Assembly: GCA_031278715.1 (NCBI GenBank)
Contig: JAITJW010000027.1
Span: 1 to 42,350 of the forward strand
Length of the DNA: 42,350 nt
Direction: 5' to 3'
Source: Treponema sp.
GTDB lineage: Bacteria; Spirochaetota; Spirochaetia; Treponematales; Breznakiellaceae
Shown: piece after piece, positions 33,224 through 37,634 of the stretch
Numbering within the stretch: position 1 is the stretch's first letter
How the letters are laid out: the number at the start of each line of letters is the position of its first letter
The notes under the pieces: model-generated
Told to the model about the DNA's origin: nothing
Databases searched by the model: none
Seen by the model: only the letters and a program-made list of their open reading frames with translations
Position numbers and translations under genes: made by a program

Positions 33224-34189
33224 CTACAGAAAATCTTGGGGAATTTGAGAGACAAGGGCCTTTTTCAGCCTGCCCCGCAATCCGGAATTCCCTACCCTGC
33301 CCCAGGGGATGCTGAAGGCCGCGGGAACGGTCCTGTACAGTGCGGCATCCCCGCCTGAAGGAACGCGGAGGGCCTGAAACGCCAGGGCCCACGGTGAATC
33401 GTCGGCAACGATCCTCACGGAAGAAGGGCTAAGCGCGGGATCCATCCAGGAATAGAGAAGGCAGGGAATCTCCTGCTCCCGGCGAAGGTACGATTCCGAA
33501 GGCCCCGCCAGAACGACACAGCGAACCTGCTCCCAGGACGAATAATCCACGGAGGGGTCCAGGTAGAGGGGAACAAGGTTTTCACGTTCTTCCCGCAGCC
33601 CCGCCAGAAAAGCTTCCTGCTCTACCGGAAAATTCTGCCGGTCCTGAAAAACCAGCACGGTTCCATCGGTTTCCCCCGCAAGCAAAGCCGCGCAGCGGCC
33701 CAGCCGCCAGGAATTGAGCCTGAGATCGGAAAACACAAGTTCCACATCCCCCCCGCCGGGGGAAGGATCGGAGCGGACCGGCTGCTCCAAAAGCGCGGAA
33801 TCTTCCCCAATGATAATGACCCTGACATCCGCCCGCTGCCGGGCATACTGGCTGAGTCCCCAGGAATAGCGGGAATGACCCAAAACCGCCCAGGGACGCT
33901 TCTCCTTTTCCTCAATGGCGAACACCATAGCTTCGGGGTTTGCATTCTCCGCTATAACAAGCCGTTTCACCCGCCGGAACAGCCGCAGGGAAAGCCCGAT
34001 CTGGCCGGTAAGGGTCCGCCTGAAGCCGTAAATAGCATCAAAACCGGCGTCGCTTACGAACAAGACCGGAGACCGGCAGAGAAACACCCCCGCCGCCAGG
34101 ATGAGGGGGAACAGTATAGCCGCCAACAGCCTAATCCGCCGCCGCCTGAGATGGGGTAAACGAAACTGATCGAAGCGGATAATGTTCAT
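33224..34189 (-). CDS. Membrane-anchored hypothetical protein upstream of flaA
   Basis: A 321-residue protein with a basic N-terminus (LPHLRRRRIRLL) and one membrane segment at about residues 19-38; the rest is probably periplasmic. The body alternates beta strands and helices (PVLFVSDAGFDAIYGFRRTL, DVRVIIIGEDSALLEQP, GTVLVFQDRQNF, VRCVVLAGPSESYLRREQ), resembling a type I periplasmic-binding fold, but this is inference from pattern only. I do not recognise a family. It has its own promoter-like pair and lies 139 bases before the flaA genes; the consensus flaA promoter lies in that gap. Confidence 0.75.
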   Translation of the reverse strand: MNIIRFDQFRLPHLRRRRIRLLAAILFPLILAAGVFLCRSPVLFVSDAGFDAIYGFRRTLTGQIGLSLRLFRRVKRLVIAENANPEAMVFAIEEKEKRPWAVLGHSRYSWGLSQYARQRADVRVIIIGEDSALLEQPVRSDPSPGGGDVELVFSDLRLNSWRLGRCAALLAGETDGTVLVFQDRQNFPVEQEAFLAGLREERENLVPLYLDPSVDYSSWEQVRCVVLAGPSESYLRREQEIPCLLYSWMDPALSPSSVRIVADDSPWALAFQALRVPSGGDAALYRTVPAAFSIPWGRVGNSGLRGRLKKALVSQIPQDFL

Positions 34190-34280: not shown

Positions 34281-35378
34281 ATGAACGATACAACCGCATC
34301 CCAGGCCCTGATGCTGGAAAACCGGCTGCGAAAACGGTACCGGCACCTCTCAAAATGGGCCCGGCGTACCGGAACCGGCGCTTTCCGCCTTTACGACAGG
34401 GATATTCCTGAAATTCCGCTGGTCCTGGATCTCTACCGCGGGGAGGCCGGAGAAGCGGCGCCTGCGGGCGAAGGCGGGCCGCCCTCCCCCGCAGGAAAAT
34501 TTGTGGCCGGCTGGCTGTACCGGAGACCTTACGAAAAAGATCCGGCGGAGGAGGAAGCCTGGCTTGCCGCAATGGTGGGGGCCGCCGGAAGGGCCCTGGA
34601 GATCCCCGTTTCCGATTTTTTTATCCGGGAACGGCGGCGGCAGCGGGGCGGCCTGCAGCACGAACAGCCCCGGGACGGGAGGAGGCTCCGGCTCAGGATC
34701 AGCGAAGGGGGCCTGCAATTCTGGGTGAACCTGTCGGATCACCTGGACACGGGGCTTTTTCTTGACCGGCGGCTCCTGCGGGCCCGGCTCCGCGATATGG
34801 CCGCGGGTAAACGGGTACTGAACCTCTTTGCCCATACCTGTTCGTTTTCGGTTTACACAGCCGCGGGAGGCGCGGCCCTGGTAGATTCGGTGGATCTGTC
34901 CGCTACGTATCTGGACTGGGGCCGCCGGAATTTTACCCTGAACGGGCTGGGAGGCCGCCCGGAATTCCAGTTCATCCGCGCGGACGCCCGGCCCTTTCTT
35001 GCCGGCGCGGTCCTGGCCCGCCGCCGCTGGGATCTTATCATCCTGGATCCCCCCACCTTCTCCAATTCAAAAATGATGGAAGGCGTCCTGGACATCAAAC
35101 GGGACCACGGAACCCTCCTGGAACAGTGCCTGGCCCTTCTAAACCCCGGAGGAAGCCTGGTATTCAGCGTTAACATGAGGGGCTTTAAGCTAGAAAGCTT
35201 TAAGCTAGAAAGCTTTAAGCTAGAAAGCTTTAAGCTAGAAAGCTTTAAGCTAAAAAGCTTTAAGCCGAGCGGGGGGATGCCGCAGGGCCGGGCCCCCCTT
35301 GACCTGACGGAAAAACTACGGGACGAGGATTTTAAGGGGCGGAAAATACCCGCCTGCTACGTTTACGGACCCGGCTGA
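34281..35378 (+). CDS. 23S rRNA methyltransferase, RlmK-like (stand-alone)
   Basis: A 365-residue class I SAM methyltransferase resembling the C-terminal (RlmK, m7G2069) half of enterobacterial RlmKL. Matches include ENRLRKRYRHLSKWARRTG, FRLYDRDIPEIPLVLDLY, DFFIRERRRQRGG, the SAM motif VLNLFAHTCSFSVYTAAGG, the NPPY-like catalytic ILDPPTFSNSKMM and IKRDHGTLLEQCLALLNPGG. The start is taken at ATG 34281; the frame is open to 34182 but homologous sequence begins here, and the ribosome site is weak. After FSVNMRGFK the chain is interrupted by five FKLES repeats where family members have a short helix, then resumes with EDFKGRKIPACYV. Confidence 0.82.
   Translation: MNDTTASQALMLENRLRKRYRHLSKWARRTGTGAFRLYDRDIPEIPLVLDLYRGEAGEAAPAGEGGPPSPAGKFVAGWLYRRPYEKDPAEEEAWLAAMVGAAGRALEIPVSDFFIRERRRQRGGLQHEQPRDGRRLRLRISEGGLQFWVNLSDHLDTGLFLDRRLLRARLRDMAAGKRVLNLFAHTCSFSVYTAAGGAALVDSVDLSATYLDWGRRNFTLNGLGGRPEFQFIRADARPFLAGAVLARRRWDLIILDPPTFSNSKMMEGVLDIKRDHGTLLEQCLALLNPGGSLVFSVNMRGFKLESFKLESFKLESFKLESFKLKSFKPSGGMPQGRAPLDLTEKLRDEDFKGRKIPACYVYGPG
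35184..35265 (+). repeat. 15-bp minisatellite inside the RlmK-like gene
   Basis: TTTAAGCTAGAAAGC is repeated at 35184, 35199, 35214 and 35229 without change, at 35244 with one G-to-A change, and a partial TTTAAGC follows at 35259. Each unit encodes FKLES, so copy-number change keeps the frame. The unit appears to derive from the conserved GFKxxx motif of the enzyme itself. Confidence 0.95.
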
Positions 35379-35444
35379 ACGGCTCCGGTTGAGAACCCCG
35401 TCCGCTAGCAGCCTGTTGCGGGCCTGTAGTGCAGCGCCCCGCAG

Positions 35445-35496
35445 CCTAATTGGTACTGCTGTACTTCCGGCCTAATTGGTGATGTTGTACTTGCGG
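35445..35496. repeat. Tandem 26-bp duplication of the rpmE 3' end
   Basis: Copy 1 (35445-35470) and copy 2 (35471-35496) match at 22 of 26 bases. Copy 2 encodes the last residues and stop of L31 (RKYNITN); copy 1, just downstream of that stop, would read RKYSSTN and stop in the same way. Confidence 0.8.
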
Positions 35497-35675
35497 CGGA
35501 ATCGTTCAATCCGGCCGGCGGTATCTACCAGTTTCTGTTTTCCGGTAAAAAACGGATGACAGGCGGAACAAATTTCAACCTTGATGTTCTTTACGGTTGA
35601 GCGGGTCTCGATCACGTTCCCGCAGGCACAGGTGATCCTGGCAGGCTCATACCTGGGATGAGTATTCTCTTTCAT
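35472..35675 (-). CDS. rpmE: Ribosomal protein L31 (zinc-binding type)
   Basis: A 67-residue large-subunit ribosomal protein. The four zinc ligands of the C+ form are present: Cys16 and Cys18 in TCACGN, Cys36 and Cys39 in [11 protein letters not shown] 35675 follows GGAGGA at a good distance; an upstream in-frame ATG at 35702 lies before that site. It is the last gene of the rho cluster, 54 bases after the rho stop. Zinc-type L31 is usually the form used when zinc is plentiful. Confidence 0.95.
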
Positions 35676-35729: not shown

Positions 35730-37634
35730 CTAATCGGCACCGGCGATTCCGGTATTCATGGATCGCAGGAAGGCCTCATTATTCTTGCTTTTCTTCATCC
35801 TGTCAACCAGGAGTTCGATGATCTCAATATCGTCCATGGGGTTGATAACTTTCCGGAGTATCCAGATTTTTTGGAGTTCTTCTTCGGTAAGGAGGAGCTC
35901 CTCTTTCCTGGTCCCGGATTTTTTGATGTTAATGGCCGGGAAGAGCCGGCGGTCGGAAATTCGCCGGTCCAGGTCGATTTCCATGTTACCTGTACCCTTG
36001 AATTCCTCAAAAATAACCTCGTCCATACGGCTGCCGGTCTCGATAAGGGCGGTGGAGATGATGGTCAGGCTTCCCCCTTCCTCAATGTTCCGGGCGGCGC
36101 CGAAAAACCGCTTGGGCTTGTGGAGGGCGTTGGAATCCACACCGCCTGAGAGTATCTTCCCGCTGGTGGGAACCGTCTGGTTGTAGGCGCGGGCAAGCCG
36201 CGTAATGGAGTCCAGCAGTATGACCACGTCTTTTTTATGTTCCACAAGGCGCTTGGCCTTTTCCAGTACCATTTCGGTTACCTGAACATGCCGGGTTGCC
36301 TGTTCGTCAAAAGTCGATGAGATCACCTCCGCCCGGACGGTCCGCTCCATATCGGTTACCTCCTCGGGCCGCTCGTCGATGAGAAGCACGATAAGGTACA
36401 CCTCCGGGTGGTTTCTGGTGATCGCGTTGGCGATCTTCTGCATCATGATGGTTTTACCGGTCCGGGGAGGCGCCACGATCAGGGCCCGCTGCCCTTTCCC
36501 GATGGGACAGAACAGGTTGATGATCCGTTCGGAAATACCGTCGGTACTTGTTTCAAGGTTCAGCTTTCGGTTTGGGTAGAGCGGGGTAAGGTTGTCAAAG
36601 GGAATACGGTTCTGGGCCACCGTAGGATCGTCGTAGTTCACCGTTTCCACCCGCAGCATGGCAAAGAAACGTTCCTGTTCCTTGGGGCTGCGGATCTGCC
36701 CGTACACGGTGTCCCCGGTCTTGAGGGCAAAAAGCCGTATCTGGCTTGGGCTGATGTAAATGTCGTCGGGGCCGGGGAGGTAGGAATTCTGCGGGCTCCT
36801 GAGAAAACCGTAACTGTCGGGGAGTATCTCAAGGGAACCGTAGGCGTAGATAACCCCGCCCCGCTCAGTATGGGCCTTGAGCAGGGAGAAGATGATCTCC
36901 TGTTTCTTCATGTTCACCATGTCTTCATGGGAAATGTTGTAGCAGGCAGCGAGATCCCGCAGGTCCATCATGTTGAGGCGGATAAGCTCGTTGATGCAAA
37001 GCCGGGGTTTCCCGTTGTCCTCCCCCCCCCGAGGTTCGGGTTTGCCGTAAATGTCCGGCATGGGGGGAAGCTCCTTGGGCAGGGCCATCGCTTCCTGCGG
37101 AACCGGAAGCCGCCCCTTATTAGGCGGGGAGGGCGTAAAATTCCCCTCAGCGGGGGTCCTGGCGGCCTGCCGGGGGTAGTCCCCATAGGAGCTGTCGTAG
37201 TTCTCACCGGAACCCTGCCGGGGCCGGGAATCCCGTTCACGTGGCTCCCGTTCGCGGCTATCCCGCTCACGGCTATCCCGCTCACGGCTATCCCGCTCAC
37301 GGCTATCCCGCTCACGGCTATCCCGTTCGCGGTTATCCCGCTCACGGCTATCCCGTTCACGGCTATCCCGTTCACGGCTATCCCGTGATGAAACGGCCTT
37401 CCGGGCCCGGACTACTACCTTGTTCCCCGGACGGTCATCCTGGTTATCGTCCCCTTCCCAGTCGTCTTCACCGGATTCCAGCCGGGTTTCCTCCGGTTCA
37501 GTACCGGGGCTGGAAAAATCCTCCTCATTTTGGGGGGGTTCCGGCGAAATTCTCTTTCTCCGGCTCACCGTTACCACTTCTTCCAAGGGAAGTTCCGCCG
37601 ATTGCGCCTTTGAGCTTCTCCGTGCAACTGCCAT
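35730..37634 (-). CDS. rho: Transcription termination factor Rho, with long N-terminal insertion
   Basis: A 634-residue hexameric RNA helicase, against about 420 in model species. The first 190 residues are low-complexity: acidic and Pro-rich, then an Arg/Asp/Ser/Glu tract of repeated RDSRE units. After this come the Rho N-terminal helical domain ([18 protein letters not shown]), the cold-shock RNA-binding domain ([19 protein letters not shown]), Walker [14 protein letters not shown], Walker [17 protein letters not shown] and the R-loop [13 protein letters not shown]. The helicase core is intact. Long, charged N-terminal insertions occur in Rho of several phyla and can alter RNA binding or drive phase separation. 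Confidence 0.96.
37231..37380 (-). repeat. 15-bp minisatellite inside rho
   Basis: Ten 15-base units run from 37231 to 37380, on the plus strand mostly TCCCGCTCACGGCTA with C/T and A/G variants. The four units from 37261 to 37320 are identical. Each encodes RDSRE (or RDNRE, REPRE) of Rho. Length changes would stay in frame. Confidence 0.95.

Follow-up and report, generated by a model that had tools for sequence, protein, structure and literature searches.

An in-frame 15-bp minisatellite in an RlmK-type methyltransferase gene of a Treponema genome

In the stretch of Treponema DNA analyzed here (the window, 42,350 nucleotides), a stand-alone RlmK-type 23S rRNA methyltransferase gene carries a tandem array of a 15-bp unit in its C-terminal coding region. 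We put a probability of about 85% on the reading that an in-frame minisatellite has expanded here, with almost no effect on fitness, in a lineage prone to repeats, such that the protein tolerates the added loop and the methyltransferase keeps working. The array is an ordinary kind of event, one among many alike in the same genome. The features discussed below are listed in Table 1.

The array and its host gene

Tandem Repeats Finder placed the array at a period of 15 with 5.6 copies, 98% matches, and a score of 161. Exact copies of the unit, GCTTTAAGCTAGAAA, begin at positions 35182, 35197, 35212, and 35227, the fifth unit, at 35242, reads GCTTTAAGCTAAAAA and differs by a single GAA-to-AAA change (Glu to Lys), and the partial sixth unit is GCTTTAAGC. 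The array therefore has the makeup described in an earlier note on this DNA (four identical units followed by a fifth that carries a single change and by an incomplete sixth), and the coordinates given there, 35184 to 35265, were correct within 2 bases. It encodes residues 301 to 329 of the protein in frame and has the properties of an in-frame minisatellite: its tandem units are no shorter than about 9 bp, its period is divisible by 3, and it lies in an open gene. Arrays scoring 80 or more were absent (0) from Markov-shuffled versions of 638 kb of the Treponema genome and of 397 to 400 kb of each of two relatives. The repeat in the methyltransferase gene is thus confirmed as real. The source assembly (2.74 Mb, 84% complete) is of the metagenome-assembled genome type and is divided into 213 contigs, which might suggest an assembly artefact, but an ordinary short read can contain 84 bp, the fifth unit carries a change of its own, and the reading frame is intact, and we regard an artefact as most improbable.

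Table 1. Coordinates of the methyltransferase gene, its repeat array, and the neighboring array in rho
Feature	Position in window	Strand	Length or unit	Remarks
Stand-alone RlmK-type 23S rRNA methyltransferase gene	34281..35378	+	365 aa	NF008748, PF10672, 3v97/3v8v
Native seed GGC TTT AAG CTA (GFKL)	35181..35192	+		Kept as GGT TTT AAG CTA in the sister species
15-bp minisatellite	35182..35265	+	15 bp, 5.6 copies	Encodes GFKLE(SFKLE)3SFKLKSFK; predicted disordered surface loop
Codons after the array	35266..35375	+		In frame; conserved DEDF segment and C-terminal strand
Second, independent in-frame minisatellite (RERDS)	37246..37385	-	15 bp	N-terminal region of rho (35730-37634, -)

An upstream start of the open reading frame is possible at 34182; the starts of homologues cluster near 34281, and, the array aside, the length of the protein is ordinary compared with its relatives. 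The protein matched the RlmK part of NCBIfam model NF008748 (model positions 391 to 679, E = 7e-87) with 292 bits, which falls short of the 466-bit cutoff set for the full-length family, a value that a protein without the RlmL half is not expected to reach. It also matched Pfam family PF10672 (Methyltrans_SAM), and its predicted model has the fold of RlmK, the 23S rRNA G2069-N7 methyltransferase, with the S-adenosylmethionine (SAM)-binding core (Foldseek top match 3v97, E = 1e-27). Profile, sequence, and predicted fold thus all bear out the earlier description of the enzyme as RlmK-like. The closest characterized counterpart in these comparisons was the RlmK half of Escherichia coli RlmKL (YcbY; PDB 3V97 and 3V8V), which was matched in both sequence and predicted fold; the Treponema protein differs from RlmKL in standing alone, without the RlmL half, and in having a 27-residue repeat insertion near its C terminus. 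Metagenome-assembled genomes of Treponema and Spirochaetaceae make up most of the named relatives, and, given the names of the isolates and what is known of these bacteria, we take the nearest of them to come from termite guts.

Origin from the gene's own codons

The gene order of the nearest relative is identical, with ~80% protein identity. Because this relative, the sister species, covers most of window positions 25 to 42 kb at 81 to 91% identity, the methyltransferase locus is orthologous between the two. At the site of the array, the sister species (G002; L036 is identical here) reads ATG AGG GGT TTT AAG CTA AGC GCG, whereas the Treponema window reads ATG AGG GGC TTT AAG CTA GAA AGC TTT AAG CTA. 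The seed GGT TTT AAG CTA is therefore present once in the sister species, compared with 5.6 copies in the Treponema array, a net gain of 81 bp, or 27 codons. No Leu codon is used less often in the Treponema genome than CTA (2.2%), and the fact that both species use it here indicates that the seed is native.

None of the methyltransferase orthologues that we examined contains repeats. Searched for with up to 3 mismatches, the 15-bp unit had no second, dispersed location in the Treponema genome, and it was absent from all 99 other family genomes searched. A two-unit, 30-base pattern had no match in GTDB r220, a collection from which the source genome itself may be left out. Relatives were thus checked for the same repeats in fixed form, as the earlier note had proposed, and the array was in no other genome searched. 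Its absence from relatives, together with the single-copy native seed in the sister species, indicates that the array was born within this one species lineage, when DNA of the gene itself was duplicated locally. Both a recent expansion and a derivation from the GFK segment of the gene itself, as previously suggested, accord with the unrepeated seed found at that very place in the sister species.

The steps involved can be outlined as follows. A 15-bp stretch from the gene's own GGC-TTT-AAG-CTA codons would have been duplicated and then expanded in one species lineage, probably through replication slippage or unequal exchange. Because the unit amounts to five codons, changes in copy number keep the reading frame.

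That the array might instead be an acquired mobile or palindromic repeat element, similar to PARCELs, is suggested by the partial self-complementarity of the unit and by the folding of the array as DNA at -23 kcal/mol, but such folding is unexceptional, being matched by 8 of 100 shuffled units and by 8 of 200 shuffles, and the single genome location, the native seed, and a unit of 15 bp rather than 75 bp make this explanation extremely improbable. We also considered a DNA hairpin as a special driver of expansion. The array forms one long imperfect hairpin, but 8% of shuffled units do equally well and most other arrays of the Treponema genome show no such folding, and this candidate was rejected.

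Effect on the protein

The spacing between the SNS and DEDF motifs is 87 residues in the Treponema protein, compared with 58 to 73 in its relatives (a range from which L008 was left out because its value was mis-measured). Since the length of this loop already varies among relatives, the protein would be expected to tolerate the array. The structure modeling that the earlier note had called for predicted a disordered repeat alongside an intact core and C-terminal strand: residues 310 to 333 mostly had pLDDT values below 50, with most of the array at about 45, and most of the core and the C-terminal strand were above 90. The model of the sister species has a short unstructured loop at the array site, with coil and no helix. 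The suggestion that the repeat replaces a helix was therefore not upheld in the nearest relative; 27 residues have instead been added to a variable surface loop, and most of the repeat is predicted to be disordered.

An impaired or dead enzyme, encoded by an early pseudogene, would fit the place of the insertion, which directly precedes the final strand, and the dN/dS ratio of 0.63 relative to the sister species in the segment after the array, a small sample of only 28 codons. A slight relaxation of this segment is possible on these sequence data. However, the gene contains no stop or frameshift, the motif residues are kept, and the core and C-terminal strand are confidently predicted. The Treponema methyltransferase retains the residues that do not vary across 20 homologues, and dN/dS relative to the sister species is 0.29 for the whole gene and 0.24 for the catalytic domain, values that are averages for the entire period since the two species diverged and are compatible with a recent loss of function. 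The conserved residues and the purifying selection (dN/dS of about 0.24 to 0.29) argue against a dead enzyme, and we consider a pseudogene improbable. With family-conserved residues kept, purifying selection evident, and the predicted core intact, the earlier proposal that the repeat may alter, abolish, or tune the activity is without support. The expansion is more likely to have added a flexible surface loop and left the methyltransferase working, and the array is probably nearly neutral.

Similar arrays and comparison with known systems

In-frame protein repeats are plentiful in the sampled genome (L064, L095, L070, L069, L058, and others); L095, for example, has an open frame of 888 residues in which 6.0 copies of a 36-bp unit follow one another, and its counterpart in the sister species is about 177 bp shorter. 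Arrays scoring 80 or more numbered 38 in 638 kb (59.5 per Mb), whereas the sample from the sister yielded 37.7 per Mb and a complete distant relative yielded 7.5 per Mb; the density in the sampled stretches of the Treponema genome (about 640 kb) is therefore about 1.6 times that of the sister and 8 times that of the distant relative. Thirty of these arrays lie in long open frames, and 28 of the 30 have periods divisible by 3, a count that is partly circular in that other periods tend to close frames.

The RERDS array in rho, 2 kb from the methyltransferase, has about 9 to 10 copies, compared with one or two in the sister species. Beyond these two genes, both flanks were found in the sister for three more arrays, all of them longer in the Treponema genome, in a comparison that was seeded from arrays of that genome, and is thereby biased toward longer arrays in it, and in which one locus, L089, could also be matched ambiguously to a second place in the sister. 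Apart from an intergenic array, the size differences for arrays with both flanks found were 177, 129, 81, 81, and 105 bp, each a multiple of 3. The intergenic array, a 26-bp repeat of 2.1 copies at 35444 to 35497 of the window, falls in the spacer separating the methyltransferase gene from its neighbor and differs in length from its sister counterpart by 70 bp, which is not divisible by 3. Two further arrays were noted elsewhere in the genome: a perfect 7-bp repeat, TGAGCTG, of 15.9 copies at a contig end (L057, 19594 to 19704, G000:C21) and 10.4 copies of a 14-bp unit without an open frame (L110, 12602 to 12746). Repeats such as these may break the assembly.

That in-frame minisatellites arise repeatedly in core information-processing genes of a repeat-prone spirochete lineage (the rRNA methyltransferase and Rho) and that their copy number adjusts the enzymes is a broader proposal that we find very doubtful. 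For the methyltransferase itself, a contingency or tuning locus, at which copy number varies within a population and adjusts activity, would fit the perfect units, which imply recent change, and has a precedent in the strain-variable in-frame repeats of other bacteria (PMC2639597). A 15-bp unit preserves the frame, though, and so could not switch the gene on and off, the enzyme affected is an rRNA-modifying one with a housekeeping role, and the many other arrays in the Treponema genome need no such explanation. Copy-number tuning is accordingly unlikely, and we give it little credence beside a nearly neutral expansion. In Legionella pneumophila, highly alike units tend to belong to the polymorphic intragenic repeats, and yet 0 of the repeats studied changed over three months of passage (PMC2639597), so perfect units alone are not proof of rapid switching.

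Our search of the literature on tandem repeats in termite Treponema found nothing relevant. The array is a clean example of a young minisatellite whose ancestral, unrepeated form can still be seen in the sister species, and taken alone it is of little import. More useful is the richness of in-frame arrays, which raises a question of replication or repair in this Treponema lineage.

PARCELs are dispersed and horizontally spread repeats of a 25-residue (75-bp) motif (PMC2996958). The Treponema array resembles them in that it is repeated in tandem within coding sequence and shows a degree of dyad symmetry, and it differs from them in its 5-residue unit, its one location, and its native origin. 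The intragenic variable-number tandem repeats (VNTRs) of L. pneumophila, in which 26 of 26 repeats studied, including those in housekeeping genes, have units divisible by 3 (PMC2639597), share with the Treponema array a unit divisible by 3, a small number of copies, and a place inside coding genes; here, by comparison, the host gene encodes an RlmK-type methyltransferase, and copy number was compared between species, with one genome for each. The array is thus of a known kind, an in-frame bacterial minisatellite, with an RlmK-type methyltransferase as its host.
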